Notes under the pieces: model-generated
What the model saw: only the letters and a program-made list of their open reading frames with translations
Database searches by the model: none
What the model was told of the DNA's origin: nothing
Assembly (NCBI RefSeq): GCF_000513295.1
Contig: NC_023065.1
Location: 1,488,001 to 1,552,000 of the forward strand
Direction of reading: 5' to 3'
Length of the DNA: 64,000 nucleotides
Origin: Magnetospirillum gryphiswaldense MSR-1 v2
GTDB taxonomy: Bacteria > Pseudomonadota > Alphaproteobacteria > Rhodospirillales > Magnetospirillaceae
Position numbers and translations under genes: made by a program
In this document: positions 6,402 through 64,000 of the stretch, piece by piece
How positions within the stretch are numbered: the first letter of the stretch is position 1
Layout: every line of letters begins with the position of its first letter

Positions 6402-6435
6402 GGACCCTCAGTCCCGCACCGGCCAAACAGTAAGT

Positions 6436-6713
6436 GGGGGGAGTTCTGTTGCCCGGTTCCCCCCGGACCGCGCTTACGGATTACGCCGCAGCGGCAAGTT
6501 CAACGTTGTCGTTGGCACTTGTGAGATTTAGCCCGATAACGGTGGTACCATGCCGAGCACAAGCCAAGTCTTTACTACCCGCGTCGATCCTATTTCGCCC
6601 CCAATCGTCCGATCGTAACCTCGGATGGTTTGGTGGAGGCGCCGGGTACCGCCCCCGGGTCCGCAAGGCCTATTCCACAAGACGTTTAGCGCCATAGCCG
6701 GGCGAACCCGGCA
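6436..6713 (-). ncRNA. ssrA: permuted two-piece tmRNA
   Basis: Minus-strand gene with permuted order. The acceptor piece comes first (about 6713 to 6631) and includes a perfect GCCGGG-UUCG-CCCGGC hairpin at 6697-6712, a T-arm-like hairpin and a 3' end CGCCUCC-A-CCA at 6641-6631. About 28 bases are presumably removed. The coding piece starts at 6602 with GGGGGCGAAAUAGGAUCGAC. Its first seven bases pair with CGCCUCC, with a G-U at the third pair, the alanyl-tRNA synthetase identity element. AAGAC in the coding piece can pair with GUCUU in the acceptor piece. A GGGGGGA/TCCCCCC hairpin (6436-6464) closes the 3' side. Outer ends are approximate. Confidence 0.92.
6481..6516 (-). other. tmRNA proteolysis tag reading frame
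   Basis: Resume codon GCC followed by codons for ANDNVELAAAA and a TAA stop. The ANDN start is the alphaproteobacterial tag signature bound by SspB, and the AAAA end is a ClpX/ClpP-type degron. Confidence 0.92.
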
Positions 6714-6777
6714 AAACCAATATAGTGCAGCGCGGCGACAAGCGCCACCCCTCGCGTGCGACAATCGGGTGGAAGTG

Positions 6778-26725: not shown

Positions 26726-26824
26726 TGCAACAAACGGAAAGTCTTCTGACCTATTCCCTTGTTGCCTTTCTTGGACGTTTCCTCCCTAAACTTGAGCCCC
26801 AGCTTCGTGCTGGGGCTTTTTTTT
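26726..26824 (+). ncRNA. predicted small RNA with CCUCC region and strong terminator
   Basis: Three parts in order: a 5' hairpin closed by GCAACAA (26727-26733) and TTGTTGC (26759-26765); a pyrimidine-rich single-stranded stretch containing TTTCCTCCCT, complementary to ribosome binding sites; and an intrinsic terminator AGCCCCAGC-TTCGT-GCTGGGGCT (26795-26817) with eight Ts. No plus-strand gene lies upstream within 980 bases, so the terminator must end an RNA that starts here. It resembles alphaproteobacterial sRNAs with CCUCC loops. Target and exact 5' end are unknown. Confidence 0.6.
26785..26798 (+). repeat. 14-bp direct repeat, left copy (possible attL)
   Basis: CCTAAACTTGAGCC, identical to 29221-29234. 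It lies inside the small RNA, at the base of its terminator. The pair flanks a 2.4-kb patch with an integrase fragment. Confidence 0.55.
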
Positions 26825-27093
26825 GGCGGATTTTCTAGGGTTAGCGCATTTATGTGCGATAGCTAATTTACGGCAGAATGTAATCTCAGATTGCTAGTTG
26901 CTGCACGGATTCTTGTTTTGTTTCTTTTTGCGCCTGCGGTCACAAATGGCGATCAACATTGGTCTTGGCTGCAAGAAGCCTAACGAGGTGGGTGAAATGT
27001 AAGCAAGCCACTTTTTAGCAGAATGCTTATAAGCGCGAAGATGTCGTAATCTGTCTGTTAGGCTTTAACCTGAACATGGTTTCATAGCTTCCC
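26825..27093. other. AT-rich noncoding stretch
   Basis: No coding frame or RNA gene is recognised. It is visibly richer in A and T than the neighbouring genes. A 9-bp inverted repeat, AAGCCTAAC (26976-26984) and GTTAGGCTT (27057-27065), is separated by 72 bases. Foreign origin is likely. Confidence 0.5.
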
Positions 27094-59372: not shown

Positions 59373-60980
59373 TCAGGCGGCGACGGCGGAGGCCGGGTTG
59401 GCGTTCCGCCAGTTCCAGGGCAGGAGTTCGTCGATGCGGCTGGCGGGGTGACCCGCGATCCGTGCAAGGACATCGGCCAGCCAGGCTTGCGGATCGATGT
59501 CGTTCATCTTGGCTGTGACGATGAGGCTGTACATGGAGGCGGCACGCTGTCCACCGCGGTCGGACCCGGCGAAGAGCCAGGACTTCCGGCCGAGCGCGAT
59601 GCCACGAAGGGCGCGTTCGGCGGAATTGTTGGTCATGCAGACGCGGCCGTCGTCGAGGAAGCGGGTGAAGGCGGGCCAGCGTTTCAGCATGTAGTCCATG
59701 GCCTTGGCAAGATCGTTGCCTCGCGACAGACCGGCGCGCTTCTCCGTCAGCCATCGTTCCAGGTCGGCGACCAGGGGGGCGCTGAGCTCCTGGCGGATCG
59801 CCCGCCGCCGGTCGGCGTCCTGGCCGCTGATGGCGCGCTCGATCTCGAACAGGGCGTCGATGCGCCGGACCGCCTCCAGCGCCAGGGGCGAGATCACCGA
59901 GGCAGCCCGGCCCTCGGCCTTGCGGCGGGCATTGGCCGCCAGGTCGGCTAGGGCGAAGAACGGACGCCTCGCATGCGCCCAGCAGGCGGCCTCCAGGATT
60001 GGCCCGGGTTTTCGGTCGGGCAGGTAGAGTGCGCCATAGCCCCCATAGGCGTCCGCCTGGAGCAGCCCGGCATACCCAGCGAGATGGGCCTGGGGGTGTT
60101 CACCTCTCCGGTCGCGCGAATAGTAGAACATGGCCGCCGGTGGTGCCGGTCCGCCGAAGGGGCGGTCGTCGCGGACATAGACCCAACATCGGCCGGTGTC
60201 GGTCTTGCCCTTCGCCAGGACGGGCACCGTGGTGTCGTCGCCATGCAGACGCGCGGCGGCAAACACATGGGCCTCGATGCGCCGGATCAACGGCTCCAGG
60301 GCGGCGCAGCCGGCGCCCACCTGGTCGGCCAGCGTGGACAGGCTGAGCGGCACACCCTCCTTGGCATAGCGCTCGGCCTGGCGGTTCAGCGGCTGGTGCT
60401 GCCCGAACTTCTCGAACAGGATCATGGCCAGCAGGCTGGGGCCGGCCCAGCCGCGCGGGGTCACATGGAAGGGCGCCGGCGCCTGGCTGATCTTCTCGCA
60501 GTCCCGGCAGCTGAACTTCTCGCGGACCCGCTGGATGACCTTCCACTGGCGCGGGATCACCTCCAGGGTCTCGGTGACGTCCTCGCCGATCTTGCGCAGA
60601 CGGTCACCGCCGCAGCAGGAGCAGGCCGACGGAGCCGGCTCGACCACCCGCTCGCGCGGCAAATGCTCGGGAAACGGCTTGCGGGCAGGCCGGTTGCGGG
60701 TGAAGGCCGCCACGTTGGTGGTGCGCGCCGCGGCCTTCTCGGCGGTGATCTCGTCCTCGGTGGCCGCCGCCGCCAGTTCCTCGAACGCCAGCTCCATCTG
60801 GTCGATCAGGCGGGCCGAGCGTTCCGCCTGGGGGCCGTAGAGTTCGCGCTTCAGTTTCTCGATCTGCAGCTTCTGGTGCGCGATCAGCGCCTGGTCCTCG
60901 GCGGCCCTGGCGCGCGCGACCGCCAGCTCCGCCCTCAGGGCGTCGATGTCGTCTGTCGGGGTCTCGCGGCCGATTTCCAT
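59373..60980 (-). CDS. tnpC: IS66 transposase TnpC
   Basis: A 535-residue IS66-family transposase. An N-terminal coiled-coil with LKRELYGPQAERS is followed by a zinc-finger-like CSCCGGDRL and CRDC, and the DDE core with LHGDDTTVPVL, LQADAYGGYGALY and the late CMTNNSAERALRGI holding the Glu. The C-terminus WLADVLARIAGHPASRIDELLPWNW is family-typical. It is intact. Confidence 0.93.
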   Translation of the reverse strand: MEIGRETPTDDIDALRAELAVARARAAEDQALIAHQKLQIEKLKRELYGPQAERSARLIDQMELAFEELAAAATEDEITAEKAAARTTNVAAFTRNRPARKPFPEHLPRERVVEPAPSACSCCGGDRLRKIGEDVTETLEVIPRQWKVIQRVREKFSCRDCEKISQAPAPFHVTPRGWAGPSLLAMILFEKFGQHQPLNRQAERYAKEGVPLSLSTLADQVGAGCAALEPLIRRIEAHVFAAARLHGDDTTVPVLAKGKTDTGRCWVYVRDDRPFGGPAPPAAMFYYSRDRRGEHPQAHLAGYAGLLQADAYGGYGALYLPDRKPGPILEAACWAHARRPFFALADLAANARRKAEGRAASVISPLALEAVRRIDALFEIERAISGQDADRRRAIRQELSAPLVADLERWLTEKRAGLSRGNDLAKAMDYMLKRWPAFTRFLDDGRVCMTNNSAERALRGIALGRKSWLFAGSDRGGQRAASMYSLIVTAKMNDIDPQAWLADVLARIAGHPASRIDELLPWNWRNANPASAVAA

Positions 60981-61037
60981 GCCCCAATGGAATCATAAAA
61001 CCCGGCCGCTGACTCGCTAAAAATGTGGGTTTCCGCC

Positions 61038-61385
61038 CTATCCGGCACTTCGCGGGCGGAAGGTGTGGCGCGGGTTGCGCCAGTCGATCCCGTCGAGCAT
61101 GTAGGCCAGTTGGGCCGACGAGATCGCCACCACGCCGTCAGCCGGAGAGGGCCAGATGAACCGCCCCTTCTCCAGGCGCTTGGCGTACAGCGACATGCCC
61201 AGGCCGTCGTGCCAAAGGACCTTGATCAGATCCCCCCGAGCACCCCGGAAAACGAACAGGTCACCGGCGTGGGGATCGCGGCCGAGCGCCTCCTGCACCT
61301 GCAGCGCCAAGCCGTTCATGCCGCGCCGCATGTCCGTCCGCCCGACCGCCAGCCAGACCCGGACGCCCGTCGGAACCGGGATCAT
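61038..61385 (-). CDS. tnpB: IS66 Orf2 accessory protein TnpB
   Basis: A 115-residue protein with the IS66 Orf2 signature: VRVWLAVGRTDMRRGMNGLA, FVFRGARGDLIKVLWHDG, and KRLEKGRFIWP. It is needed for IS66 transposition with TnpA and TnpC. It overlaps tnpA by 4 bases (ATGA) and ends 57 bases before tnpC starts. Confidence 0.93.
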   Translation of the reverse strand: MIPVPTGVRVWLAVGRTDMRRGMNGLALQVQEALGRDPHAGDLFVFRGARGDLIKVLWHDGLGMSLYAKRLEKGRFIWPSPADGVVAISSAQLAYMLDGIDWRNPRHTFRPRSAG

Positions 61386-61747
61386 CGCCGCTCCAGCACG
61401 TCCAAGACCCGGCACAGCAGCTGGGCACCGACACCATCGCCGACACGGACACGGTAGCCACCAGCCAGATCGATCTCCACCACGCCGGCAGAAGAAGAGG
61501 CTTCCTTCCGCCCGGAGGCCGCCATGTCCTCGGCCACCACCACCGGCACCATATGGGCCGGCACCGTCTCGCCCTGTTGTCCCCCGAAACGCTTGCGCCA
61601 AGTGAAAACCTGATTGTCGTTGACCCCGTACCGCCGCGCCACCCCGGCCACAGAGGCCCCGGGCTCGTAGGTCGCCGCGACGATCTCCCGCTTCAGATCC
61701 TCAGGCCAAGAACGGTTCCGCCGCCGCCCGGTCGAGTTTCTGTCCAT
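61382..61747 (-). CDS. tnpA: IS66 accessory protein TnpA
   Basis: A 121-residue protein with a helix-turn-helix of the transposase-8 type: RSWPEDLKREIVAATYEPGA, GVARRYGVNDNQVFTWRKRF. The C-terminal part is basic and Val-rich. ATG 61747 is chosen; a TTG at 61786 would extend it by 13 residues. It is the first gene of the IS66 operon. Confidence 0.88.
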   Translation of the reverse strand: MDRNSTGRRRNRSWPEDLKREIVAATYEPGASVAGVARRYGVNDNQVFTWRKRFGGQQGETVPAHMVPVVVAEDMAASGRKEASSSAGVVEIDLAGGYRVRVGDGVGAQLLCRVLDVLERR

Positions 61748-61950
61748 AAATGAATCCGTGGACACTTCCGCCAACTTCAACGCCAATCAGGCGATCAGCT
61801 TCGCCGAAGCTCACCCGGCCGGGAAGGCGGTCCACGCCGGAGGGATACAATAAAAACGACGCCCATATGCATATGCCGTTATCGGCGCGCCTCGGCGAAG
61901 ATTTTGTGACTGAGGCCCCTGTCCCCGCAATTCCACGATGACGCAAAAAT

Positions 61951-62220
61951 AAAGGGGGGGAGCCTTGGGGTGCTCCCCCCCTTTGCTGCCTGCCGCCGGT
62001 TTCTTGGGGTTCGGGGACGAAACCGGCGGCGACAAGAATGGAGGAAGAACGTTTGGGGGCCGTTCTTCCTCCTGAAGTTTTCCGCTGCACTGGGGTTCGG
62101 GGACGTGACAGGCGGAAAACCCCATGGGCATCGGGGATGAGAGAGGCCCCGTTGGGGGACGGAACCTCTCTCGAACGCTTGTTTCCGGCTTTGGGGTTCG
62201 GGGACAGACGGAAACAAACG
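61951..62220. repeat. tandem array of six stem-loops with conserved G-rich loops
   Basis: Six hairpins. H0 61951-61984: 13-bp stem, loop CTTGGGGT. H1 61992-62030: 12 bp, loop TTGGGGTTCGGGGAC. H2 62040-62072: 12 bp, loop TTTGGGGGC. H3 62077-62120: 9 bp plus CAC/GTG, loop TGGGGTTCGGGGAC. H4 62139-62172: 8 bp plus CC/GG, loop GTTGGGGGAC. H5 62176-62220: 12 bp with one G-U, loop region TTTGGGGTTCGGGGAC. Stems differ in sequence; loops are conserved and alternate short (H0, H2, H4) and long (H1, H3, H5). No coding frame fits. The array ends 9 bases from the stop codon of the kinase at 62230. Strand and function are unknown. Confidence 0.8.
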
Positions 62221-62229
62221 ATGGAAATT

Positions 62230-63960
62230 CTATTCGGCGGCCTTCACCTCCCCGTCCACCACGGTCAGGCGCAACGGCTTGCGTCGGGGCAAGGAAAAGC
62301 TGAAGGTGCTGCCTTCGCCCAAAGTACTGTCCACCCAGACCTTGCCGCCCATGTGCTCGACCATGCGGCGCACGATGGCCAGACCGATGCCGGTGCCGCC
62401 GCCGTCGATACCTTCGAGACGGTGGAAAATTTCAAACAGCCGGATACGGTCGCGCGGATCGATGCCGGCACCGTTGTCGCGCACCGAAAACACCAGGCAA
62501 TCGCCTTCGCTGCGGGCACTGACATGGATCAGCGGCTTGCGACTTTCGCAGCGATAGCGGATGGAATTGTCCAAAAGCTGGGTGAAAATCTCGGCCAGCG
62601 CCCGTTCATCGACCAGGGCCGAAGGCAGCGGATCGACCACGATCGTGGCGCCGGTGCTGCGAATCTGGTCGGCGAGCCGATCCATGGCGGTGGACACGGC
62701 GGTGGACACCGCCACCTCGCCATCACAATCGGGAATTTGGTCGACGGCGACAAAGGCTTCCAGATCCTTCACCAGCTTGCGCATGCGCTGGGCGCCGTCA
62801 ACCACGTGGGCGACATAGCCGCGCCCCTCATCGTCTAGGGCCGAGGCCACGTGACTGGACAGCAACTGGGCATAGGCGACCACCCGGCGCAACGGTTCCT
62901 GAAGATCGTGGGCGGCGACCTCGGCGATACGTTCCAGATCGGCGACATAACGGCGCAAACGGACACGGCTGGCCAGCAATTCCGCTTTTTTCACCGCCAG
63001 ATCGGCAGCAATGCCTTCCTGCGCCCGGACCATGCGGTAAAGCGCGATCAGGGCGGCGCCCAAGGCCAAGGTCACAGCCGCGCCGATCAAGAGATGCCAC
63101 GTGACCGAACGGTCATAGACGGCCATGGCCTCGACCTTCGAACGACCGACCAAGACCGAAAGCGGCACATTGGGCAGCGGACGCAGGCTGCTGATGCGGT
63201 CGATACCGTCCAGCGGACCATTGCTTTCCAGCGTCGTCGCTTCCTGCCGGCGCACCGCTTCCAAGATGGCGCCGCCTTGCAGGCTTTTCCCCAGAAAGCC
63301 GCCACCGCCATGAGAGGCGACGCGAACCACACCGTCAGTACCGATGACGGCAATGGCACCGTTTTCACCCACATCAATGGAGCCGTAAATGTCGCCCAGA
63401 TAATTGGGATCAAGGGAAACCACCAACACACCGGCGAAATTGCCATGGCCGTCTTCAAGCCGGCGGGTCAACTGGATCGACCACTTGCCCGAAGCCCGGC
63501 CCAGCACCGGCTTGCTGATGAACAACTCGTCCTTGACAGCGGCTTTGTGGACGCGGAAATGCTCGCGGTCCGACAAATCCATGTGCGTAAATCCCGGCAC
63601 GTTGCTGTCGGCCAGCATACCGTCGGCATCGATGCGGGCGATCTGCACCGAAACCCGCTTCAGGATGACATTGTTGGCCACCGACCGATTGAGGTCGAAA
63701 CGATCGGGCGCCTGCTGAAACTCGGCCCGCAAATAAAGCAGGGTCTGGTCCAGGCCGGCTATGGTACGCTGAATGTGTTCGTCAAAGGCACGGGCCAGAT
63801 TGGCGGTGTCGGCACGGGTATCGGCCAGCACACGGGTGCGTTCCGAACTCAGGCTGGCATAGATGGCCACCCACACCATGACCAGCAGCGCCGCGCCAAA
63901 CCAAGCGACGGCCCGCGCTGCCCGCAATTTCACCGCGCCCACGGGGGTGGCGGCAATCAT
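62230..63960 (-). CDS. Cache-domain sensor histidine kinase
   Basis: A 576-residue kinase. An N-terminal membrane helix (16-40), a periplasmic double Cache-type sensor (40-285; DLSDREHFRVHK and FISKPVLGRASGKWSIQLTRR are typical), a second helix (about 290-312), a coiled-coil, the dimerisation box with acceptor His351 in AAHDLQEPLRR, and HATPase_c (FTQLLDNSIRYR, RDNGAGIDP, GTGIGLAIVRRM). ATG 63960 follows GGGGTGGCT; a GTG at 63966 is possible. No response regulator is adjacent. The hairpin array begins 9 bases past the stop codon, so it may be this gene's 3' untranslated region. Confidence 0.9.
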   Translation of the reverse strand: MIAATPVGAVKLRAARAVAWFGAALLVMVWVAIYASLSSERTRVLADTRADTANLARAFDEHIQRTIAGLDQTLLYLRAEFQQAPDRFDLNRSVANNVILKRVSVQIARIDADGMLADSNVPGFTHMDLSDREHFRVHKAAVKDELFISKPVLGRASGKWSIQLTRRLEDGHGNFAGVLVVSLDPNYLGDIYGSIDVGENGAIAVIGTDGVVRVASHGGGGFLGKSLQGGAILEAVRRQEATTLESNGPLDGIDRISSLRPLPNVPLSVLVGRSKVEAMAVYDRSVTWHLLIGAAVTLALGAALIALYRMVRAQEGIAADLAVKKAELLASRVRLRRYVADLERIAEVAAHDLQEPLRRVVAYAQLLSSHVASALDDEGRGYVAHVVDGAQRMRKLVKDLEAFVAVDQIPDCDGEVAVSTAVSTAMDRLADQIRSTGATIVVDPLPSALVDERALAEIFTQLLDNSIRYRCESRKPLIHVSARSEGDCLVFSVRDNGAGIDPRDRIRLFEIFHRLEGIDGGGTGIGLAIVRRMVEHMGGKVWVDSTLGEGSTFSFSLPRRKPLRLTVVDGEVKAAE

Positions 63961-64000
63961 AGCCACCCCCCCCGAGGACGCGAGGCCGCCGCCCTGGCCC

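Follow-up and report, generated by a model that had tools for sequence, protein, structure and literature searches.

The 6C/B11 RNA, one of the systems closest to the locus described here, is actinobacterial. Mycobacterial B11 was described as acting by means of a C-rich loop in its terminator (PMC12395582). The Xanthomonas RNA sX13 is reported to comprise three stable stems with apical loops of 4C or 5C, and its C-rich loops repress mRNAs with GGGG motifs, for which pairing with GGGG near translation starts was proposed (PMC3771888). In the alpha-r14 RNA NfeR1, three hairpins with stems of divergent sequence share a single ultraconserved loop motif, and this RNA was described to silence ntrBC and to feed back on a two-component system (PMC10746234). 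The CcsR1-4 RNAs of the CIN1 locus were reported to follow a protein gene one after another, with a terminator at the end (PMC10253847). The alpha-r14/cuckoo type is understood here as other papers define it, and not as in the cuckoo RNA paper itself. The locus compared with these systems is a tandem array of hairpins in a window of 64,000 nucleotides (the whole stretch of DNA that was analysed) from Magnetospirillum gryphiswaldense.

A tandem array of two alternating hairpin types

On the minus strand, read from 62220 to 61951, three two-hairpin modules stand end to end, placing six hairpins in 270 nt, and the array begins 9 nt past the stop codon of a same-strand histidine kinase gene. A preliminary description of this DNA had proposed six hairpins with retained pairing, differing stems and a recurring long loop, all of which were found at this place; since short and long loops alternate along the array, its reading as a two-hairpin module repeated three times was also borne out. 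The stem sequences are wholly different from one another. The long loop is GUCCCCGAACCCCA, the same 14-mer in L1, L2 and L3, and the short loops read CCCC(C)A on the minus strand. The features, in the 5′ to 3′ order of that strand, are the following.

62230 to 63966, minus strand: sensor histidine kinase gene (dCache_1_like, HisKA and HATPase_c; Pfam scan)
62176 to 62220, minus strand: hairpin L1, long C-rich loop, module 1 (predicted fold -16.8 kcal/mol; module 1 matched by model R1)
62139 to 62172, minus strand: hairpin S1, short C-rich loop, purine-rich outer 5′ arm, module 1 (14-bp stem, -24.0 kcal/mol)
62077 to 62120, minus strand: hairpin L2, long loop GUCCCCGAACCCCA, module 2 (-16.1 kcal/mol)
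62040 to 62072, minus strand: hairpin S2, loop GCCCCCAAA, purine-rich 5′ arm, module 2 (12-bp perfect stem, -20.5 kcal/mol)
61992 to 62030, minus strand: hairpin L3, long loop, module 3 (12-bp perfect stem, -23.3 kcal/mol)
61951 to 61984, minus strand: hairpin S3, short C-rich loop, module 3, terminator-like (13-bp perfect stem, -27.0 kcal/mol; AUUUUUG next)
61944 to 61950, minus strand: U-rich tail after S3 (from the sequence; 8 T in the 15 bases past the model match)

The last hairpin, S3, looks like a terminator in the M. gryphiswaldense genome. Over 25 loci, the number of T in the 15 bases past the model match ranged from 3 to 9, with AUUUUUG in the window, and the U-tract after the last hairpin was weak (3-4 T in 15 bases) in five of them. 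Two further elements were observed beyond the array. Shortly 3′ of S3, the loci L010, L011, L012 and L017 carry AGCTTCCTTGGCGGGAAGGCCCCACCCCC and a long G+C-rich hairpin, common to the genomes G004, G001, G003 and G010, and in G006 a COG3860 RNA motif (L186:5985-6038, 73.9 bits) is located about 690 nt 3′ of the array.

Folding, covariation and the strand under selection

The minus strand of 61940-62230 was predicted to fold at -149.1 kcal/mol, against -91.7 kcal/mol (sd 4.9) for 200 dinucleotide shuffles, none of which folded as well (z -11.8). For the plus strand, z was -3.9, again with 0/200 shuffles as good, and in the predicted fold the six hairpins do not all stay separate. The raw energy is unexceptional for such a G+C-rich window, 23 of 912 sampled windows folding as well as the array or better; the case for the array is its structure relative to composition, together with covariation, and not raw stability.

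Covariation was evaluated on an alignment of 61 modules made with R1, a covariance model of the long-short (L-S) module built from eight modules. A MAFFT alignment of 38 modules had misaligned the stems, and R1 came from the last of two later, smaller alignments. The R1 search at E up to 0.0002 gave these 61 modules from 24 loci, omitting the seven weakest of 68 matches (E 0.0016 to 0.056), six of them antisense to an array and one next to the array of L107. It includes the third modules, with altered long loops, of G008, G011 and G012, which are absent from the 38-module alignment. Identical rows were counted once in the covariation statistics, that is, 60 of the 61 modules. In this alignment, 95.8% of 1418 stem cells were paired, compared with 67.8% when partners were shuffled and 53-59% when they were slid; both-side changes were found in all 24 pairs (shuffled mean, 21.1), and the covariation score was 0.80 against 0.25. 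The alignment leans towards the R1 structure, a bias that the slid controls address, and these are the fairer yardstick, given an alignment fitted to the structure and the relatedness of the genomes.

The same 61 modules contain 122 G.U pairs on the minus strand against 12 A.C pairs, A.C being the wobble of the other strand, which points to the minus-strand RNA as the molecule under selection. That the array is a real folded RNA element under selection is strongly supported: the selection on a folded nucleic acid suggested earlier was upheld by the paired fraction against the shuffled and slid controls, and the wobble count directs it to RNA. A plus-strand reading, in which the loops are G-rich, was ruled out by the wobble count and the folding z values. 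The loops had been introduced as conserved and G-rich; their conservation stood, but on the selected minus strand they are C-rich, and in the predicted structure the C-rich motifs lie unpaired in apical loops. Thirteen of the 14 long-loop columns are conserved at 93-100% and the first at 62% (G), compared with 37-85% for most stem columns. The purine-rich left arms noted for the short-loop stems hold across the lineage, the 5′ arm of their outer eight pairs being 96% purine, against 38% in the long-loop stems. Judged from these sequences, this bias appears to be a constraint beyond pairing, for which the pairing of the loops would not account.

CsrB titrates CsrA through GGA loops, and the array had initially been considered a possible sponge of the CsrA type. 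This idea fails because the loops are C-rich on the RNA strand, the GGGGA form being found on the plus strand only, and because the genome gives no CsrA match (0/1 for the own genome, with a match in 3 of 14 control genomes searched likewise). A scaffold or decoy for a protein other than CsrA is possible and is considered below with the target searches.

Distribution of the array

The 13-mer GTCCCCGAACCCC has three occurrences in the own genome, all inside the array. It was matched 31 times in 13 genomes of the own genus, compared with two matches for the reversed control; outside the genus it gave nine matches against 22 for the control in 42 genomes, and the genomes with a match and with a control match were equally numerous (19/55 each). 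Because the bare 13-mer was no commoner than its control outside the genus, it is informative within the genus only, and the structure model carries the rest. With E up to 0.01, the refined model R2 had matches in 33 of the order's 317 genomes. Strong arrays were present in 29 of the 55 family genomes and nowhere else in the order, distributed as 13/13 in the own genus, 1/1 in genus g2, 14/17 in g7, 1/1 in g10 and 0/23 in the other family genomes, some of these family absences resting on the whole order having been searched. The covarying occurrences in related genomes, named beforehand as what to look for, were found in this way (61 modules at 24 loci; 29 genomes). Arrays of the own genus and of g2 have three modules, apart from that of G007 with two; those of g7 have two, and that of G021 has one.

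The other four R2-matching genomes of the order scored 28.2-37.5 bits, and the class and phylum draws, searched with stricter filters that lose weak matches, gave matches in 3/385 and 3/398 genomes besides the own one (27.9-29.2 bits), with one genome common to both. The non-family R2 matches other than that of G536 (27.9-32.4 bits) were treated as chance. In G536, from another family of the order, the 37.5-bit R2 match (L194:4800-5100) comprises different C-rich-loop hairpins (CUCCCCAUACCCCA) with a terminator-like end, and no EDEPVT motif occurs in the 10 kb examined; it may be a chance match or a remote relative. A pattern scan for two loops 72-100 nt apart, covering 84,980 species with one genome per species, yielded 77 stretches, with fold results listed for 76 (not for L123): two or more loop sites that fold at -20 kcal/mol or lower were present in 22 of these and lacking in the other 54. 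The records of the 22 structured stretches are titled Magnetospirillum, Paramagnetospirillum, Phaeospirillum, Rhodospirillaceae and Rhodospirillales, with Stygiobacter and Terasakiella records corresponding to the family genomes G005 and G049. A phage origin was rejected, as none of the eight viral stretches of the scan had two loop sites at -20 kcal/mol or lower; phage records gave no blastn match to the array. By these searches, the array appears confined to the Magnetospirillum-type lineage.

A hairpin substrate for a recombinase had also been suggested, and such a DNA substrate, whether of a recombinase or of a transposase, or else a mobile repeat of the REP type, would find some support in M. 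gryphiswaldense, where open reading frames that look IS66-like (59373-61786) adjoin the array. These frames, which we take to resemble an IS66-type transposase set, lie beyond the 3′ end of the array, and the close relative G005 has other sequence in their place. This explanation is hardly credible, given that each of the 29 array genomes holds a single strong locus at a fixed place, to which G018 adds one weak match (27.6 bits), and that the tolerance of G.U pairs is strand-specific.

The kinase and response regulator setting

A kinase match is located just 5′ of the array in 27 of the 29 array genomes, as judged from coordinates compared by eye, although the g7 kinases are alike only in their C-terminal kinase half (about residues 290-560). 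An OmpR-family response regulator gene is divergent from the kinase gene; in the three regulator proteins that were scanned, the best models were TorR and ArcA, with scores below their cut-offs. In the array-less g7 genomes G046, G047 and G050, the best kinase matches were weaker (E values of 3e-47 to 4e-50) than those of the remaining 14, which all reached 8e-75 or better.

The two remaining array genomes, G007 and G021, have no kinase between the regulator and the array, which still lies beside the TorR/ArcA-like regulator gene and retains two modules in the former and one in the latter. In G021, the match begins 134 nt from the regulator start and comprises one L-S module with AUUUCUUUU behind it; this module is overlapped by a mechanical open frame of 670 aa. 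These two genomes bear directly on the view that the array is a cis-acting 3′ untranslated region which stabilises and terminates the kinase mRNA and has no function in trans. Such a role would suit the 9-nt spacing from the kinase stop codon, the terminator-like end and the adjacency to the kinase in 27 of 29 genomes. Nevertheless, it is rather improbable, since G007 and G021 retain the array where the kinase is missing and a mere stabiliser would have no need of fixed loops.

Words resembling GTTYACA were seen by eye to be repeated in the divergent promoter region of most genomes shown, and the response regulator may bind them. Other structures were also observed around the kinase gene. A long hairpin precedes it (G000:C1 ~1551980-1552060; window 63980-64000, where the window end cuts it), with an inner GGGATGGGC (GCCGCCGCC...GGCGGCGGC), and is likewise seen in L184 and relatives; by eye, the GGGATGGGC stretch is present in 10 of 14 aligned sequences, including that of G007, where the kinase is missing. 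This hairpin gave no Rfam match at gathering score, only CC2171 at 18.7 bits, and is possibly a structured leader. In L092, L106, L107 and L011, the last kinase codons and the stop codon are enclosed in a hairpin, GGATCAGGAGGC...GCCGCCTGATCC, whose outer pairs vary by genome and which is not evident in the window.

Proposed function and the search for targets

We consider it somewhat more likely than not, on analogy with alpha-r14/NfeR1, sX13 or 6C, that the array acts as a multivalent minus-strand regulatory RNA whose C-rich loops pair with G-rich stretches of mRNAs. The array would probably share a transcript with the histidine kinase gene; in genomes that lack the kinase at this place, it would probably be transcribed on its own from the region next to the divergent TorR/ArcA-like regulator gene, and we infer that the response regulator controls its expression. 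The stems would serve to display the same C-rich loop sequences in single-stranded form, and these loops probably pair with G-rich sequence close to the ribosome binding sites of mRNAs encoded elsewhere; this pairing would be expected to lower the translation of the targets, and the repeated modules would offer several equivalent binding sites.

Several observations speak against this reading: the BjrC80 entry of the published transcriptome lacks a start site (PMC9549626), the U-tract behind the last hairpin is weak in five of 25 loci, an open frame spans the G021 module, and loop pairing does not account for the purine bias of the short-loop stems. The searches for complementary sequence count against it as well. 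Allowing at most one mismatch, GGGGTTCGGGGAC was located at three sites of the own genome beyond the array, against 12 for the reversed control, and no long complementary target was found; short C-tracts would be expected to give little specificity in a G+C-rich genome. Pairing of the long loop with the kinase's own leader, evaluated in 25 of the 27 kinase-linked genomes (G040 and G048 were left out), showed no gain over shuffled leaders (mean z +0.26), G037 alone standing out (z -2.3). The kinase leader of this genome (L026) contains GGTTCGGGGAC, which is exactly complementary to the long loop over 11 nt, a feature that does not recur as a pattern among the other 24 leaders. The T-arms of tRNAs offer 8 nt complementary to the loop (GGGGUUCG), and a T-arm-like pattern was found at three places in the own genome against none for the control, but this pairing was set aside because the T-arm is folded in the mature tRNA.

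The lack of a long complementary RNA target in the own genome is also what would be expected if the repeated C-rich loops served to titrate a C-rich-RNA-binding protein (KH, cold-shock or other). This multivalent protein decoy is the main rival to mRNA pairing: one loop repeated in tandem on divergent stems suits titration, and the 93-100% conservation of 13 of the 14 long-loop positions exceeds what a GGGG seed needs. The single module of G021 would make a weak sponge, however, and neither CsrA, which gives no match, nor any other candidate protein came to light, and we regard a decoy as fairly unlikely, if worth keeping in view.

Taking up again the preferred reading, pairing with mRNAs, a more specific form of it is put forward tentatively, as a possibility that we hold less likely than not to be right in full. 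The array could represent a lineage-restricted RNA family in which a near-invariant 13-nt loop, UCCCCGAACCCCA, is borne on freely changing stems in one to three L-S modules per locus, and which can outlive the kinase whose transcript carries it, serving a two-component system as a modular, multivalent output RNA. The polypurine 5′ and polypyrimidine 3′ arms of the short-loop hairpins could then open for strand invasion of Shine-Dalgarno sequences after a C-rich loop has nucleated the pairing. The locus also provides a natural experiment, in which one RNA loop is fixed while the surrounding stems drift, in bacteria of magnetosome research. Moreover, it is a repeated RNA element tied to a two-component system, and since genera differ in having one, two or three modules, multivalency can be tested directly.

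Comparison with known RNA families

For M. gryphiswaldense CP027526, the published annotation includes a 181-nt minus-strand BjrC80 sRNA at 43.4 bits, with no start sites among the data given for it (PMC9549626). The present locus scored 43.5 bits against BjrC80, likewise across 181 nt of the minus strand, and no other BjrC80 match was obtained in its genome at E up to 1. Considering the near-equal score, the same length and strand, and the sole match, the published entry is almost certainly the present array, the coordinates differing between the two (1,456,741 in the published listing and 1,549,947 here). The published label, almost certainly given to the array, is a sub-threshold assignment, at about half the curated cut-off of 80 bits. 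The reading of the array as a divergent member of BjrC80 (RF02354) draws on an E value of 8.8e-7 with all 162 model positions matched on the minus strand, and on scores of 41.5-44.1 bits in four array genomes (G000, G004, G005 and G011). It is nonetheless very unlikely: the cut-off was exceeded in 0/55 family and 0/289 class genomes, the match covers about two of the three modules, and only 4 of the 29 array genomes score above 40 bits although the others have the same loops (17.0 bits at the G003 array and, under strict filters, no match listed for the other 24). Membership was rejected on the score below cut-off and on the 25 array genomes without an array match above 40 bits; the likeness lies in a multi-hairpin RNA whose last hairpin is terminator-like. 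Elsewhere in the window, Rfam matches identified a suhB/mmgR sRNA (26757-26832, plus strand, 68.7 bits) and an alpha-type tmRNA (6433-6751, minus strand, 255.7 bits).

The 6C RNA (RF01066) was likewise rejected as a family for the array (25.2 bits, E 0.45, cut-off 47). The array resembles 6C/B11 in its adjacent hairpins with C-rich loops, but 6C/B11 has runs of six or more C and the array has CCCCGAACCCC; in the literature consulted, the papers containing CCCCGAACCCC concern, judged by titles, other matters. With sX13 it shares C-rich motifs in apical loops, which in the array belong to a predicted structure, whereas sX13 lies at the polA locus and its published account, as far as it was available, describes no repeated modules or long fixed loop (PMC3771888). 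Sponges of the CsrB/RsmZ type also repeat identical loops on varied stems, but those are GGA loops, in contrast to the C-rich loops of the array in a genome with no CsrA match.

The likeness to the alpha-r14/cuckoo type consists in an identical pyrimidine-rich unpaired motif repeated on differing stems, in alphaproteobacteria in both cases. The array differs in its loop motif, UCCCCGAACCCCA, the cuckoo motif CCUCCUCCC being found in 0/24 array spans; it also differs in its two alternating hairpin types and in being tied to a kinase/response-regulator locus, whereas the cuckoo type is tied to a DUF1127 gene. From these comparisons, the array appears to be a further, little-studied form of an sRNA type already known, in which a single loop motif recurs on stems of differing sequence.
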